NCBI RefSeq assembly: GCF_028867965.1
Contig: NZ_JAPQNT010000001.1
Span: 62,001-126,000, forward strand
Reading direction: 5' to 3'
Origin: Flavobacterium sp. SUN046
GTDB lineage: Bacteria; Bacteroidota; Bacteroidia; Flavobacteriales; Flavobacteriaceae
Length of the DNA: 64,000 nucleotides
Under the pieces are notes generated by a model. It ran no database searches. It saw only the letters and a list, made by a program, of their open reading frames with translations, and had not been told where the DNA came from. Position 1 is the first letter of the stretch, and every line of letters starts with the position of its first letter. Made by a program: the position numbers and the translations under genes. Positions 2,499 through 52,705 of this stretch are shown here, piece by piece.

Positions 2499-2556
2499 CG
2501 ACACGAATTACACGAATTTTCACAAATTATTACCACTTATTATTTCACGAATTTTA
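2499..2556. repeat. ACACGAATT-family repeat cluster, murG-ftsW gap
   Basis: Two adjacent copies of the 9-mer ACACGAATT (2501-2509 and 2510-2518) are followed by TCACAAATT and, after a gap, another CACGAATT at 2546-2553. The same family is found at 41.8-42.4 kb, 49.2-49.56 kb and weakly at 56.4 kb. It fills the spacer inside the dcw operon. Confidence 0.7.
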
Positions 2557-28206: not shown

Positions 28207-30456
28207 CTAATCAAATTTTGATTTTATTTCTTCTTTTGGCCAAGTATTATTAGTTACATCAATATCAGCCGTTTCCAATTTTGGATCGATAACAATTTTA
28301 GTGATTTTTTTATCAGTTGCAAATGTTCTACTAACTTCTTTATCGTTCATTCTCCATATTTGTGCTGGAAATTTTTGAGTTTCGGTTGTGCCATCTTCGT
28401 AGGTTAATTCTACAATAATTGGCATAACTAATCCGCCTGGTTTATCGAAAGTTACTTGATAAAAATATTTAGGCTCTTTTAGTTTTGCTTTTTCTTCGGC
28501 TGTAAAATGTTCGTTAACATAATCATCCAAAGCTTTATAATCGGCGATTTTAAATGGCTTATTCATTTCTGTTTTAAAATCTTCGCTTCCATCAGCAATC
28601 ATGTACACCATTGCACCTGGATTGGTATCACGACGACGACGCGTTTTCATGAACTCAGTAACTTCTTTAGAAGGTTCGTTGCTTACAAAATACTTTTTAA
28701 CTTCTTTAATTCCGATGTCATTGGCATCAGTTGAGTAAAACCAACCTCTCCAAAACCAATCTAAATCAACTGCCGATGCATCTTCCATAGTTCTAAAGAA
28801 ATCCTCAGGTGTTGGATGTTTGAATTTCCAACGATTAGCATACGTTTTAAAAGCGTAATCAAACAATTCATGTCCCATAATAGTTTCACGAAGAATATTT
28901 AAAGCTGTTGCAGGCTTTCCGTAGGCATTATTTCCAAACTGACGAATACTTTCAGAATTGGTCATAATTGGTTCTAATCCTTTTTGATCACCACTCATGT
29001 ATGGAATAATATTTTTGGCTGGACCACGACGTAATGGAAATTTGTCATCAAATGATTTTTCGGCTAAAAATTCCATAAATGAATTCAAACCTTCATCCAT
29101 CCAAGTCCATTGACGTTCATCGGAATTAATAATCATTGGAAAAAAATTGTGCCCAACTTCATGACAAATCACGCCTAACATTCCGTATTTAACTTGATCA
29201 GTATATTTTCCATCGGCATCTGGACGACCATAATTCCAACAAATCATTGGGTATTCCATTCCTTGATCGCGTGCATTAATCGAAATTGCTTTCGGGTAAG
29301 GATAATCAAATGTGTAGCTTGAATAACTTTTTAAAGTATGCGCAATAATTCGTGTAGAATATTGTTCCCAAAGCGGATTTCCTTCTTTTGGATACAACGA
29401 AATTGCCATTGCAGTAGTTTTTCCAGTTCTAACCGCCATTGCATCATAAATGAATTTTCTAGAAGTTGAAATTCCGAAATCTCTAACATTTTCTGCTTTG
29501 AATTTCCATGTTTTCTTTTTATTAGAAAAACCTTTTTCTGCAGCTTCGGCTTCAGCTTGAGTTACAACTATTACAGGATTATCGAATGATTTTTCTGCTT
29601 GTGCATAACGTGCCAATTGTGCTGGAGTAAAAACCTCAGCTCTATTTAATAAAGTTCCTGTTGCTTCAAGAATATGATCCGCTGGAACCGTAATGTTTAC
29701 TTCAAAATTTCCGAAAGGCAATGCAAATTCACCTGAACCCCAAAATTGCATATTCTGCCAACCTTCAACATCATTATAAACCGCCATTCTTGGATAAAAT
29801 TGCGCTAAAATATATAAGTTATTTCCATCTTTATCAAAATGTTCGTAACCCGAACGACCACCATCTAAAGTATAATTATTGATTAAATAATTCCATTTTA
29901 TTGAAAAAGAAATCTTTTCACCATGTTTCAAAACTTTAGGCAATTCAATACGCATCATCGTTTGATTAACAGTGTATTGCATTGGTTTTCCTAGAGCGTC
30001 TTTTACAAAATCTATATTGAAACCACCGTCGAAATCTTCTTCTAAATATTTTCTTGAAAATCCTTGAACGCCAATTGCTGGATCGGTTTTATTGCTTTCA
30101 ACTAATGGTGTAAGCGATTTACGAGATTGCTGATTTTGATCTAATTGCACCCAAAGATAATCTAGTGATTCTTTCGCATTATTGGTATATGTTATCGTTT
30201 CTGAACCGTATAATTTTGTGTTTTTATCGTCAAGTTCAATGTCAATTTTATAATCGGCTTGTTGCTGATAATATTCTGGTCCTGGTGCGCCAGACGCGGT
30301 ACGATACATGTTTGGCGTAGCAAGCAAATCGTACATTTGTTTAAATTTATCAGGATTTTTTTCGTTTGAAACTGGTGGTTTTGGAGTTTCTTGAGCCAAA
30401 ATTCCTACTGAGAACAGCATCAAGCTTAGTTTTAAAATTGCCGATTTATGCTTCAT
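28207..30456 (-). CDS. M1-family zinc metallopeptidase, exported
   Basis: 749 residues with a signal peptide ending near LAQ (about residue 21). The zinc motif HEXXH-X18-E is HEVGH near residue 430 with the second ligand in WTWMDEGLNSF. The GAMEN-like exopeptidase strand is GMEYP. The N-terminal beta-saddle binds the peptide amino end. The exported location suggests it works in the periplasm or outside on peptides. Long family members of this type are common in Bacteroidetes. Confidence 0.9.
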   Translation of the reverse strand: MKHKSAILKLSLMLFSVGILAQETPKPPVSNEKNPDKFKQMYDLLATPNMYRTASGAPGPEYYQQQADYKIDIELDDKNTKLYGSETITYTNNAKESLDYLWVQLDQNQQSRKSLTPLVESNKTDPAIGVQGFSRKYLEEDFDGGFNIDFVKDALGKPMQYTVNQTMMRIELPKVLKHGEKISFSIKWNYLINNYTLDGGRSGYEHFDKDGNNLYILAQFYPRMAVYNDVEGWQNMQFWGSGEFALPFGNFEVNITVPADHILEATGTLLNRAEVFTPAQLARYAQAEKSFDNPVIVVTQAEAEAAEKGFSNKKKTWKFKAENVRDFGISTSRKFIYDAMAVRTGKTTAMAISLYPKEGNPLWEQYSTRIIAHTLKSYSSYTFDYPYPKAISINARDQGMEYPMICWNYGRPDADGKYTDQVKYGMLGVICHEVGHNFFPMIINSDERQWTWMDEGLNSFMEFLAEKSFDDKFPLRRGPAKNIIPYMSGDQKGLEPIMTNSESIRQFGNNAYGKPATALNILRETIMGHELFDYAFKTYANRWKFKHPTPEDFFRTMEDASAVDLDWFWRGWFYSTDANDIGIKEVKKYFVSNEPSKEVTEFMKTRRRRDTNPGAMVYMIADGSEDFKTEMNKPFKIADYKALDDYVNEHFTAEEKAKLKEPKYFYQVTFDKPGGLVMPIIVELTYEDGTTETQKFPAQIWRMNDKEVSRTFATDKKITKIVIDPKLETADIDVTNNTWPKEEIKSKFD

Positions 30457-33486: not shown

Positions 33487-33559
<73 letters not shown>

Positions 33560-40985: not shown

Positions 40986-41801
40986 ATGATTATTCCAAAA
41001 ACACGAGAACAAATAGAAATTATGCGCGAAAGTGCCTTATTAGTTTCTAAAACATTAGGCGAAATCGCAAAAGTTATTAAGCCTGGTGTAACCACTTTAC
41101 AATTAGACAAAATTGCCGAAGAATTCATCAGAGATAATGGTGGAGTTCCAGGTTTTCTTGGACTTTATGGCTTTCCGAATTCGTTGTGTATGAGTCCGAA
41201 TGCTCAAGTTGTTCACGGAATTCCAAATGCAAAACCGCTAGAAGAAGGTGATGTGATTTCGGTAGATTGTGGCGTATTAAAAAACGGATATTATGGTGAT
41301 CATGCTTACAGTTTTGAAATTGGTGAAATAGCTGCAGAAGTTAAAAACCTTTTAAAAGTTACCAAAGAAAGTTTGTATGTTGGAATACGAGAATTCAAGG
41401 CAGGAAATCGTGTTGAAGATGTTGGAAATGCCATTCAAAAATATTGTGAAAGTAATGGTTATGGTGTAGTTCGCGAATTAGTCGGACACGGATTAGGAAC
41501 AAAAATGCATGAAGATCCAGAAATGCCAAATTATGGTAAAAAAGGTCGTGGAAAATTGTTTGTAGAAGGAATGGTTGTTGCTATCGAACCAATGATTAAT
41601 ATGGGAACAAAAAACATCAAACAGTTGAAAGACGGTTGGACAATTTTAACAGCAGACGGAAAACCAAGTGCCCATTTTGAACACGACGTCGCTTTAATTA
41701 ATGGCAAACCTGAGATTTTATCTACTTTTAAATATATTTATGATGCTTTGGGAATTGTTAGTGATGAAGAAGTTGAGTTTAGAAACTATTATGTACTATA
41801 A
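40986..41801 (+). CDS. map: methionine aminopeptidase, type I
   Basis: Map removes the N-terminal methionine from new proteins. The 271-residue protein has the pita-bread fold ligands: DVISVDCGVLKNGYYGDHAYSF segment with two Asp, the His in ELVGHGLGTKMHEDPEMPNYG, and Glu residues in VAIEPMINMG and SAHFEHDVALI. It stands in its own unit after gpmI. The 3' flank starts with ACACGAATT repeats 2 bases after the stop. Confidence 0.96.
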   Translation: MIIPKTREQIEIMRESALLVSKTLGEIAKVIKPGVTTLQLDKIAEEFIRDNGGVPGFLGLYGFPNSLCMSPNAQVVHGIPNAKPLEEGDVISVDCGVLKNGYYGDHAYSFEIGEIAAEVKNLLKVTKESLYVGIREFKAGNRVEDVGNAIQKYCESNGYGVVRELVGHGLGTKMHEDPEMPNYGKKGRGKLFVEGMVVAIEPMINMGTKNIKQLKDGWTILTADGKPSAHFEHDVALINGKPEILSTFKYIYDALGIVSDEEVEFRNYYVL

Positions 41802-41802
41802 A

Positions 41803-41860
41803 TTTTACACGAATTTCACTAATTCTCACAAATTTATTGTGTGTTAGATTTCACAAATTG
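41803..41860. repeat. ACACGAATT-family repeat, left flank of GxxExxY gene
   Basis: TTTTACACGAATT (41803-41815) opens three 10-bp units: TACACGAATT, TCACTAATTC and TCACAAATTT (41806-41835), then degenerate TTCACAAATTG to 41860. It lies between map and the GxxExxY gene. Confidence 0.75.
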
Positions 41861-41901
41861 AATAAAAATACATACCAAAATCAACTTAATAATTATAAGC
41901 C

Positions 41902-42276
41902 ATGAATGAAATTTATTTAAAAGACGAAGTTTTTAAAATTATTGGATTATGTATGGAAGTGCATAAAATACTTGGAAAAGGTCATAGTGAAGTTGTTTAT
42001 AAAGATGCTTTAGAACATGAATTCAGGCTAAATAATATTTCATTTGAAAGAGAAAAAGAATATAAGATTCTATATAAAGATATTATTTTACCAAGAAAAT
42101 ACAACGCGGATTTTGTGGTTTACGAAGAAATTATTTTCGAAGTAAAAGCAATATCACAATTAACAGTTAGCGACACTAAACAAACATTAAATTATTTAGC
42201 TTCTTCAAAAAATAAATTGGGTTTATTAGTTAATTTTGGAGAAGATAGTTTAAAATACAAACGAATTATATTATAA
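41902..42276 (+). CDS. GxxExxY family protein, putative PD-(D/E)XK-type nuclease
   Basis: 124 residues of the GxxExxY family. The name motif is G27, E30, Y33 (GHSEVVY). Residues that fit a RecB-like nuclease core are Asp70 (NADFVVY), Glu80-Val-Lys82 (FEVKA) and Gln94-X3-Tyr98 (QTLNY). No experimental role is known to me. The gene is flanked on both sides by the ACACGAATT repeat family, with TTTTACACGAATT at 41803 and 42298 and its inverse at 42386-42398. This suggests gene and repeats moved or evolved together. Confidence 0.85.
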   Translation: MNEIYLKDEVFKIIGLCMEVHKILGKGHSEVVYKDALEHEFRLNNISFEREKEYKILYKDIILPRKYNADFVVYEEIIFEVKAISQLTVSDTKQTLNYLASSKNKLGLLVNFGEDSLKYKRIIL

Positions 42277-42297
42277 AGTCAGTTTGATCCAATTAAA

Positions 42298-42398
42298 TTT
42301 TACACGAATTAAAGCATCAATAAAACAATACAAAGTATTGAATTAGTGAAATAATAAGTTGAAAATAAATTTGTGTAATTCGTGTAATTCGTGTAAAA
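42298..42398. repeat. ACACGAATT-family repeats, right flank of GxxExxY gene
   Basis: A direct copy of TTTTACACGAATT lies at 42298-42310. An inverted array of 9-bp units GTGTAATTC, GTGTAATTC, GTGTAAAA lies at 42373-42398 just before the next gene. The 42386-42398 segment is the exact inverse of the copy at 41803-41815, so the nuclease gene has terminal inverted repeats of 13 bp. Confidence 0.75.
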
Positions 42399-42408
42399 AA
42401 GAAATAAA

Positions 42409-43233
42409 ATGAAAAAATTATTCAAGTTCATATTAAATACCATTCCAAGACCAATACTTATTCGTTTAAGTATTGTAATTCGTCCTATTTTAGCTTTTTT
42501 ATTAAGAGGAAATCGTTTTACTGATCCAATTGACGGAAAAAGTTTCAGAATGTTTTTGCCATACGGATACGGAAATCAGCGTAACAACGTACTTTCACCA
42601 AGCACACTTTCACTAGAAAGACACCGTTTGCTTTGGTTGTATTTGCAAAATGAAACAGACTTTTTCCAATCTGAACTTGATTCAGATCCTAATCCTAACA
42701 GAATAAAATTAAGAAATGCTGAGACAAATGCAGCATTAAAAGTACTACACTTTGCACCTGAACAAGAATTTTACAAACGCTTCAAAAAGCAAAGCAATAT
42801 CGAATATACTACAACCGATTTGCTTTCGCCATTAGCCGATGTCAAAGCTGACATTTGTAATTTACCATTTAAAGATAACGAATACGACATCTTACTTTGC
42901 AACCACGTTTTAGAGCATATTCCAGATGATACTAAAGCAATGCAAGAGTTATATAGAGTTTTAAAACCGGGCGGAATGGGAATCTTTCAAATTCCACAAG
43001 ATTTATCTCGAGCAATAACTTTTTCGGATGATTCTATTGTAGACCAAAAAGAACGTGCTAAAATTTTCGGACAATACGATCACGTTCGCGTTTATGGAAG
43101 AGATTACTTCGACAAATTAAGAAGCATTGGTTTCAAAGTTATTGAAGAAGATTACACTACAAAATTAACTCCTGAACAAGTTGAAAAATATTGCTTGGCA
43201 AAAGGCGAAATAATTCCGGTTTGTTTTAAGTAA
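42409..43233 (+). CDS. class I SAM-dependent methyltransferase
   Basis: 274 residues. The methyltransferase core starts at about 104 (VLHFAPEQEFYKRF), with DLLSPLADVKADICNLPF, the motif NEYDILLCNHVLEHIPDD, and LYRVLKPGGMGIFQIPQ. The first 35 residues are hydrophobic and basic and may lie on the membrane. The glycine-rich motif I is replaced by HFAPE, a variant seen in some lipid and sugar methyltransferases. The substrate is unknown. Confidence 0.85.
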   Translation: MKKLFKFILNTIPRPILIRLSIVIRPILAFLLRGNRFTDPIDGKSFRMFLPYGYGNQRNNVLSPSTLSLERHRLLWLYLQNETDFFQSELDSDPNPNRIKLRNAETNAALKVLHFAPEQEFYKRFKKQSNIEYTTTDLLSPLADVKADICNLPFKDNEYDILLCNHVLEHIPDDTKAMQELYRVLKPGGMGIFQIPQDLSRAITFSDDSIVDQKERAKIFGQYDHVRVYGRDYFDKLRSIGFKVIEEDYTTKLTPEQVEKYCLAKGEIIPVCFK

Positions 43234-49200: not shown

Positions 49201-49559
49201 TTTTTTACACGAATTGCACTAATTTTCAAAAATTAAATTGTTTTAAATTAAATTACACGAATTTAAAAATCTAATTTATTAGATAAATTCGTGTAATTAA
49301 TTCAAATTAGTGAAAATTAGTGCAATTCGTGTCTAAATTTAAATTGTTTTAAATTCAATTCGTGTAATTAATTGATTGAAATTTGTGAAAATTAGTGCAA
49401 TTCGTGTCTAAATTTAAATTGTTTTAAATGCAATTCGTGTAATTAATTGATTCGAATTTGTGAAAATTAGTGCAATTCGTGTATAAATTTAAATTGTTTT
49501 AAATGCAATTCGTGTAATTAATTCAAATTAGTGAAAATTAATGCAATTAGTGTCTAAAT
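49201..49559. repeat. ACACGAATT-family tandem array, 71-75 bp units
   Basis: The 362-base convergent spacer between the esterase and rsmG is fully repeat. It begins with TTTTACACGAATT (49203-49215). A hairpin follows, with 14-bp perfect arms AATTACACGAATTT (49251-49264) and 49285-49298 around a nested 6-bp palindrome. Then come nearly identical units starting with AATTCGTGTAATTAATT at 49286, 49357, 49432 and 49507 (periods 71, 75, 75, last unit cut at rsmG). Each unit also contains GTGAAAATTAGTGCAATTCG, the inverse of the consensus seen at 41803. No coding frame is visible. Confidence 0.85.
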
Positions 49560-51514: not shown

Positions 51515-52705
51515 ATGAGCAACCCATTATCAGACAGAATTAACAAATTATCAACCTCGCAAACCCTTGCAATGGCAGCATTAGCAAGAGAATTAAAAGC
51601 ACAAGGAAAAGACATCATTAGTTTAAGTTTGGGTGAACCCGATTTTAACACACCCGATTTCATCAAAGAAGCAGCTAAAAAAGCAATCTATGAAAATTAT
51701 TCAACTTATTCACCTGTTGATGGTTATATGGATTTGAAAGAAGCTATTTGCAGAAAATTCAAACGCGATAATAATTTAGAATACAAACCTGCCAATATTG
51801 TAGTTTCAACAGGAGCAAAACAATCGTTGTACAACATTGCGCAATGTATGATTAATGACGGTGACGAAGTAATTCTTCCTGCGCCATATTGGGTTTCGTA
51901 TTTCGAAATCATTAAAATGGCCGGCGGAATTCCGGTTGAAGTTCCAACTTCTGTTGAAAGTGATTTTAAAATTACACCTGAACAATTAGAAGCAGCAATT
52001 ACTCCAAAAACTAAAATGATTTGGTACAGTTCACCTTGTAACCCAAGTGGTTCTGTATACAGTCGTGAAGAATTGACGGCTTTATCAAAAGTTATTTTGA
52101 ATCAACCAAATGAAATTTTTGTAGTGGCTGACGAAATTTACGAACACATTAATTTCTCAGGAACTTTTTGCAGTATTGCAACAATCGACGGAATGTTTGA
52201 CCGAACAATTACAGTTAACGGAGTTGCTAAAGCATTCGCAATGACAGGTTGGAGAATTGGATATATTGGCGCATCGGAAATAATCGCAAAAGCATGTACC
52301 AAAATGCAAGGTCAAGTTACATCTGGAGCAAATTCTATTGCGCAACGTGCCACAATAACTGCGGTTGACGCTGATCCAAGTGTATTGAACGAAATGGTTA
52401 CTGCATTCAAAAACCGTAGAGATTTAGTAGTTGGATTAGTAAAAAATATTCCAGGTTTCAAATTGAATGTTCCCGAAGGCGCATTTTATGTTTTTCCTGA
52501 TGTTTCGTATTATTTTGGTAAAACATTACGCGGAAAACTAATCAATAATGCTGATGATTTCTCAATGTATTTATTAGCCGAAGCCAATGTGGCAACCGTA
52601 ACTGGTGATGCTTTTGGAAATGCAAATTGTATTCGTTTTTCGTATGCAACTAGCGAAGAATTATTGACTGAAGCTATGAAACGTATTAAAGAAGCCGTTT
52701 CGTAA
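51515..52705 (+). CDS. pyridoxal-phosphate-dependent aminotransferase (aspartate aminotransferase-like)
   Basis: 396 residues of the class I fold type I aminotransferases. The PLP lysine is near 238 in NGVAKAFAMTGWRIGY. Other family residues are the SLGEPDFNTP start, WYSSPCNPSG and the C-terminal arginine in CIRFSYATS. It probably makes aspartate or another amino acid from its keto acid. The gene is flanked by two copies of a hairpin repeat element, one on each side. Confidence 0.92.
   Translation: MSNPLSDRINKLSTSQTLAMAALARELKAQGKDIISLSLGEPDFNTPDFIKEAAKKAIYENYSTYSPVDGYMDLKEAICRKFKRDNNLEYKPANIVVSTGAKQSLYNIAQCMINDGDEVILPAPYWVSYFEIIKMAGGIPVEVPTSVESDFKITPEQLEAAITPKTKMIWYSSPCNPSGSVYSREELTALSKVILNQPNEIFVVADEIYEHINFSGTFCSIATIDGMFDRTITVNGVAKAFAMTGWRIGYIGASEIIAKACTKMQGQVTSGANSIAQRATITAVDADPSVLNEMVTAFKNRRDLVVGLVKNIPGFKLNVPEGAFYVFPDVSYYFGKTLRGKLINNADDFSMYLLAEANVATVTGDAFGNANCIRFSYATSEELLTEAMKRIKEAVS

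Follow-up and report, generated by a model that had tools for sequence, protein, structure and literature searches.

Among the described systems closest to the locus analysed here, RAYT is an HUH tyrosine enzyme that goes with GTAG-tagged REP hairpins, according to PMC8266576 and PMC3116915. For the Rpn/YhgA-like family (PF04754), PMC5350276 describes two divergent versions that were apparently introduced separately between panC and panD, and in Coxiella an intervening sequence of the 23S rRNA carries tandem heptamers before its S23p ORF, as reported in PMC4990558. Here we describe a small gene of Flavobacterium sp. SUN046, predicted to encode a nuclease of a different family, that is bracketed by inverted arrays of short iterons, and whose arms recur without the gene elsewhere in the same genome.

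The window (the whole stretch of DNA that was analysed, 64,000 nucleotides) holds on its plus strand an M24 peptidase gene (map, 40986..41801), a GxxExxY gene encoding a predicted PD-(D/E)XK nuclease of 124 aa (41902..42276), and a SAM methyltransferase gene (42409..43233); the junction between the two outer genes is the empty or filled site considered below. The unit of the element is of a 9-bp CACNRATT type, with four copies per arm, in plus orientation upstream of the nuclease gene and in minus orientation downstream. The left arm (41807..41859, plus strand) consists of ACACGAATT, TCACTAATT, TCACAAATT and again TCACAAATT, at 41807, 41816, 41826 and 41851 (offsets 0/9/19/44), a spacing like that seen in gene-less arms, and the inverted right arm (42341..42394, minus strand) has its units at 42386, 42377, 42368 and 42341 (offsets 0/9/18/45). 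An extra unit, ACACGAATT, lies within the downstream flank (42302..42310, plus strand), and the segment 42298-42398 folds better than its shuffles (z -3.5). An earlier note on this DNA had placed the 13-mer TTTTACACGAATT at 41803-41815 (+), 42298-42310 (+) and 42386-42398 (-) and had concluded that the gene sits between inverted repeats; the coordinates are right and the conclusion holds, the 13-bp repeat being the outer part of two longer iteron arms of ~53 bp each. With up to two mismatches allowed, TTTTACACGAATT occurs 31 times in the window, where 10.5 occurrences would be expected; four of the 31 are exact. A chance origin of the repeats is excluded by the shuffles, 0 of 100 of which gave as many, and by a reversed-pattern control with 0 matches. 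An RNA-family search of the window returned nothing at the element, the only match over threshold being a tRNA at 33487-33559.

The same note was also right in assigning the gene product to GxxExxY, with residues of a RecB-like core. The ORF matches TIGR04256 at 128.5 bits (cut-off 35) and PF13366 at 112 bits, its only Pfam match being PDDEXK_3. In 60 aligned sequences D70, E80, K82 and Y98 are invariant, as are G25, G27, E30 and Y33, and Q94 is conserved in at least 90%, so that the active-site set of the window protein reads E30, D70, E80-x-K82, Q94 and Y98. With the fold and the D...ExK active site of the PD-(D/E)XK superfamily, the protein is a nuclease of the Cas4/RecB type with a complete active site and a Cas4-like fold. 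Neither the profile searches with the window protein nor the 60 aligned proteins gave a match to a known transposase family, and HUH is absent from the eight families that the 60 matched; a Pfam search detected no PF04754 (Rpn) domain in the window protein, a PDB sequence search gave nothing useful, and the phage records searched for GxxExxY contained no match. Of 118 genomes sampled across the phylum, 59 have a GxxExxY gene, and copies are also carried on plasmid records from four other phyla; on a Sphingomonas plasmid record (L291) the gene stands between fabD and fabG of a fatty-acid operon. We know of no established function for GxxExxY, and full-text searches of open-licence PMC articles found no paper linking it to such repeats.

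The bracketing of GxxExxY genes by inverted repeats is general in the phylum. It was measured with a motif-free score, obtained by reverse-complementing the downstream flank and taking its best local match to the upstream flank, for 65 loci (6 from the same genome as the window, 24 from relatives, 30 phylum-wide and 5 from other records), of which 63 had enough flank. The earlier note would have counted it as refuting if GxxExxY genes lay no closer to such repeats than other genes do, but they do lie closer: the median score is 17.5, while 349 control genes have a median of 10.0 (p 6e-24). These controls were taken from the window and from the region of this locus in relatives (20 stretches); they include GxxExxY genes at the same site and, coming from round one locus, are in many cases mutual orthologues rather than independent. 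The difference persists against the 62 short genes among the controls (p 4e-12). The 95% line of the controls (13.5) is passed by 45 of the 63 loci and missed by 18, and the 99% line (27.5) is exceeded by only 4. Some control genes score high, one through a terminator (L216:14526) and the window gene at 51515 through another palindrome family. With ParE as a second and cleaner control, the 30 phylum-wide loci, which are the best-scoring from the search that matched 59 of the 118 genomes, have a median of 15.0 against 9.0 for 30 ParE genes drawn likewise (p 1e-9), and 18 of the 30 lie above 13.5. Ordinary terminators can be set aside as the cause, ParE genes never scoring above 11.5. When mismatched flank pairs of the same loci served as the control, 15 of the 30 reached p 0.05; the motif class common to these loci inflates that control.

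Correctly oriented unit pairs reach densities of 6.8 and 8.1 per kb within 100 bp of the gene, where wrongly oriented pairs stay at 1.4 and 2.3 per kb, and beyond 300 bp there are no more than 0.32 per kb. The first regular expression for the unit missed 26 of the 65 loci, owing to units with different spacings or letters, and the main claim of bracketing accordingly rests on the motif-free score. In five further genomes, 18 of 27 GxxExxY matches were scored and 15 exceeded 13.5, some of these genes overlapping the other sets. Among plasmid-borne genes 2 of 8 copies pass 13.5 (Bacteroides and Bernardetia); judged by eye, the repeats are fainter in Treponema and Fusobacteria, one-sided in Gemmatirosa and Sphingomonas, and unclear in Persicobacter and Prevotella. 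The link is therefore strong in Bacteroidota and only suggestive elsewhere.

Six GxxExxY copies, five intact and one broken, lie in the genome that contains the window. All six are bracketed by inverted repeats, with scores of 19 to 30. Five unit types serve the six copies: CACGAATT at the window element, CGCAGATT, ACATAGAT/ACATAG, CACGGATT/AACGGATT, and CGCAAAG at two copies, including the broken one (L006, G000:C5:36392-36738), which keeps its brackets. The pattern ACACGAATTNCACNAATT has 33 matches in this 3.37-Mb genome, against 0 for the reversed pattern; these make up 19 places separated by more than 400 bp, each arm of the window element being taken as a place of its own. Gene-less arms outnumber gene-bearing ones. 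The array sites extracted as loci lie outside ORFs of at least 100 aa in 29 of 30 cases, while such ORFs cover 81% of these loci, and a number of gene-less copies stand between convergent or divergent genes. In the five gene-less places tested, single-stranded DNA hairpins fold with z of -3.1 to -5.1. The earlier note had listed three further places for the repeat family in the window, and two of them are real arrays: a solo left arm (2501..2553, plus strand) with units at 0/9/19/44 and no gene, between two minus-strand ORFs, and a gene-less cluster (49207..49553) between convergent genes, in which plus-strand units are followed by several right arms repeated in tandem every 75 bp. The third, at 29347, is a single site, differing from the 13-mer by one mismatch, inside the ORF 28207-30456 and probably matches by chance. 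By eye, the site of the cluster is a short terminator-like gap in 9 of 10 relatives read with both neighbours. Also by eye, an aminotransferase-like gene (51515-52705) has a CATTAAG-type palindrome on each side; these are probably two more gene-less elements, of another family.

Gene-less palindromes are multiplied in relatives as well. The genome G121 contains eight closely similar palindromes of 96-97 bp in unrelated flanks; read by eye, the eight copies share no target duplication, which is not decisive, and no closely related empty site was seen for them. In G125, three copies were read (L383, L384, L385) in which a CACAGATTAAAGGATT palindrome is nested centrally in CACGAATT palindromes. 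Across 37 genomes of the genus, the six with a window-type gene have 0, 2, 3, 23, 33 and 34 arrays and the other 31 have at most 11 (p 0.0035, relatedness uncorrected). G126 has the gene yet no exact array, and G145 has 11 arrays but no window-type gene; both count against a mobile element. The earlier note had named repeat-rich genomes devoid of GxxExxY as evidence against the association; none was found, since the seven genomes without a GxxExxY match to the window protein have 1, 1, 0, 0, 0, 0 and 0 arrays, and the repeat-rich G145 holds other GxxExxY genes. A second family, CGCAGATTCGCNGATT, is likewise commoner where its gene type is present (17 genomes with, 20 without; p 0.004, relatedness uncorrected), the type having been assigned from matches with roughly 46-58% identity, which include one broken copy.

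The arms follow the GxxExxY gene more closely than its neighbours. On the GxxExxY tree, which was built from 124 columns only, 8 changes account for the iteron class (AATT or GATT) of the 74 orthologues that have both neighbours; shuffled labels average 17.0, and 0 of 500 shuffles are as low. The map tree requires 13 changes (a value reached by 3 to 7 of 500 shuffles) and the methyltransferase tree 15 (reached by 58 to 60 of 500). The two arms of one locus agree at variable bases (0.68 against 0.45, and 0.77 against 0.53 expected from the columns) in 60 distinct arm pairs from the 65 loci with both arms readable, a comparison uncorrected for relatedness, and part of the agreement is common descent. 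Residues 4, 10 and 106 differ with iteron class in a comparison that does not separate this from relatedness, and carry no weight here.

At the junction of map and the methyltransferase gene, different states can be compared. Of 80 relatives of the window gene kept from 163 found, 75 adjoin map (74 with both neighbours seen), and all 75 are flanked within 130 bp on either side by CACN(A/G)ATT units, the arms being kept across 68-93% protein identity. That persistence counts against a mobile element, since selection for regulation would give the same. The methyltransferase was found in 147 genomes, and of these we read 70 junctions, the 30 best-ranked and 40 chosen from lower in the ranking; map was in reach in 68. 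The junction is empty, with a gap of at most 4 bp, in 27 of the 68, and in 23 of these the methyltransferase start overlaps the map stop codon. It is filled by a window-type GxxExxY gene in 11 and, by best hit, by another GxxExxY subfamily in 10, the latter being 37% identical to the window protein where measured (G130) and having mostly CACAAAG, CGCAAAG or CACAGAG units. Short gaps make up 17 more, 3 of them clear CACAGAG palindromes. In another 3 junctions (L296, L301, L325) stands an unrelated gene whose product starts MNCKTC and looks zinc-ribbon-like by eye. On the map-protein tree, of whose 65 branches 12 are strong and on which gain is indistinguishable from loss, GxxExxY presence needs at least 15 changes; the window type, with 11 rows, needs 11, which is not below the mean of 10.5 obtained with shuffled labels. 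Part of this turnover may stem from homologous exchange between species. The comparison of empty and filled sites proposed in the earlier note thus yields both states at one junction; no close strain pair differing by the element occurs among the genomes compared, and no transposition event was seen, both of which count against a mobile element. Records titled Bifidobacterium, Nitrotoga or Rhizobium (L056, L090, L100, L102) carry a Flavobacterium-like map locus and are probably mis-binned contigs.

We favour the reading that arm, GxxExxY gene and inverted arm form one autonomous element accompanied by non-autonomous palindromes, and put its probability at roughly 0.55. The nuclease of such an element would probably act as a dimer or a larger oligomer and would recognise its own iterons, in which CAC and ATT are fixed and the variable middle may be the part that confers specificity; recognition could take place in the inverted arrays or in the hairpin or cruciform that they can form. 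The enzyme would cut at the iterons or at the target, and repair might then copy the arms into intergenic sites with or without the gene, which would make the gene-less palindromes non-autonomous offspring, while the gene itself may ride in operons and be read by host transcripts. In favour of this reading we count the brackets measured against controls, the orientation-specific units, the six bracketed copies of one genome and the 75 orthologues at the map site; the agreement between arms, the fit of iteron class to the GxxExxY tree and the G121 palindromes; and the array counts that track gene type, the site found empty, filled or alternately filled, and the active site with its fold. The shortfall of loci at the 95% and 99% control lines, the low pass rate on plasmids and the mutual orthology of many control genes count against it.

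The alternative that survives best is that the palindromes are moved by another enzyme, such as host repair or an unlinked recombinase, and that GxxExxY genes and four-helix-bundle ORFs are captured passengers that aid persistence. Genes of the four-helix-bundle family TIGR02436 (S23/IVS type; L228-L257), unrelated to GxxExxY, are in many cases bracketed by inverted arrays of 7-9 bp units of other classes, including CAGTAGTCAGTAG, AGCTATTAGCTG and AAGTATAAAG; 28 of 30 loci could be scored, with a median of 13.5 against 9.0 for ParE (p 1.4e-6) and 13 of 28 above 13.5. That two unrelated families share a similar architecture is the main reason to doubt that GxxExxY alone does the moving, and the mover may be neither of them; the excess of gene-less arms in the window's own genome and the G145 arrays without a window-type gene also favour the passenger account. 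We nevertheless think the passenger explanation unlikely, because fewer changes of unit class are needed on the tree of GxxExxY proteins than on those of the adjacent genes, the six paralogues of a single genome use five unit types, and array counts track the gene type.

An immobile, resident nuclease of repair, defence or toxin type, with the arms as operators of its own operon and the dispersed arms as decoys, terminators or leftovers, would account for units kept in 75 of 75 orthologues at one site. It would also suit the finding that in 54 of 62 loci the GxxExxY gene is read in the same direction as the genes on either side, compared with 156 of 278 among control genes (Fisher p 1.6e-6, with controls from one region of 20 relatives and a test that ignores relatedness). 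Operators are, however, a poor match for inverted downstream arms, for multi-copy gene-less palindromes in unrelated flanks and for turnover at the junction, and the GxxExxY gene matched no PADLOC defence family, so that we regard this account as improbable. Still less credible is a process at the RNA level like that of 23S rRNA intervening sequences, in which the arms pair in a polycistronic transcript and RNase III removes the stem, making insertion into an operon harmless: the operon-like location, the inverted arms and the heptamers of the Coxiella insert suit it, but differences between arms show no excess of G-U over A-C type (G/A 56 against A/G 51; T/C 7 against C/T 19) and hence no sign of selection on RNA pairing, some gene-less copies lie between convergent or divergent genes, and the element stands between protein genes, with no S23p (TIGR02436-type) ORF, and is not a 23S rRNA insert.

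The link between gene and brackets gives GxxExxY a likely substrate, a testable role and a possible recognition code, and ties a common class of repeats to a gene. A wider and more tentative possibility, which we judge less likely than not, is that bacteria harbour a general class of selfish DNA, so far undescribed, whose members are bracketed by iterons, each with a small protein, a private iteron code of 7-10 bp in inverted arrays and gene-less palindromes spread in trans. The GxxExxY nuclease would then be one branch and TIGR02436 another, and the class might be the source of many dispersed CACAGAG-, CGCAAAG-, CACGAATT- and CAGTAG-like repeats. If so, GxxExxY would be a mobilising enzyme of a new kind whose DNA code can evolve.

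Set beside known systems, the element resembles IS elements and MITEs in its terminal inverted repeats and short non-autonomous copies, and differs in matching no known transposase family and in having ends made of degenerate iterons; that no target duplication is visible at the G121 copies is not a decisive difference. A junction that is empty or filled by two GxxExxY subfamilies recalls homing endonucleases, a likeness that is suggestive only. Intervening sequences of 23S rRNA also place a small ORF in a stem-forming insert with upstream tandem heptamers (PMC4990558), but they are excised as RNA, lie in rRNA and encode a four-helix bundle, not a nuclease. Rpn proteins share the PD-(D/E)XK DNA nuclease and the occupation of one intergenic site by divergent versions; the family here is PF13366 rather than PF04754, and the accessible part of PMC5350276 mentions neither iteron brackets nor gene-less copies. 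The earlier note was reminded of RAYT and REP sequences, and the comparison is sound as an analogy, while fold and repeat anatomy differ: here a PD-(D/E)XK nuclease is paired with tandem 9-10 bp iterons that have no such tags, the arm ends of the window element and the G121 copies, read by eye for a GTAG (or CGTC) tag, having no GTAG and starting with TTTTACACG or AACACG. In common with the RAYT (TnpA-REP)/REPIN "REPtron", repeats in both orientations surround a nuclease gene, inverted pairs that lack the gene occupy extragenic DNA, and particular genes are tied to particular repeat families, so that GxxExxY and its arms provide a second nuclease-with-palindromes system for comparison with RAYT and its REPINs.
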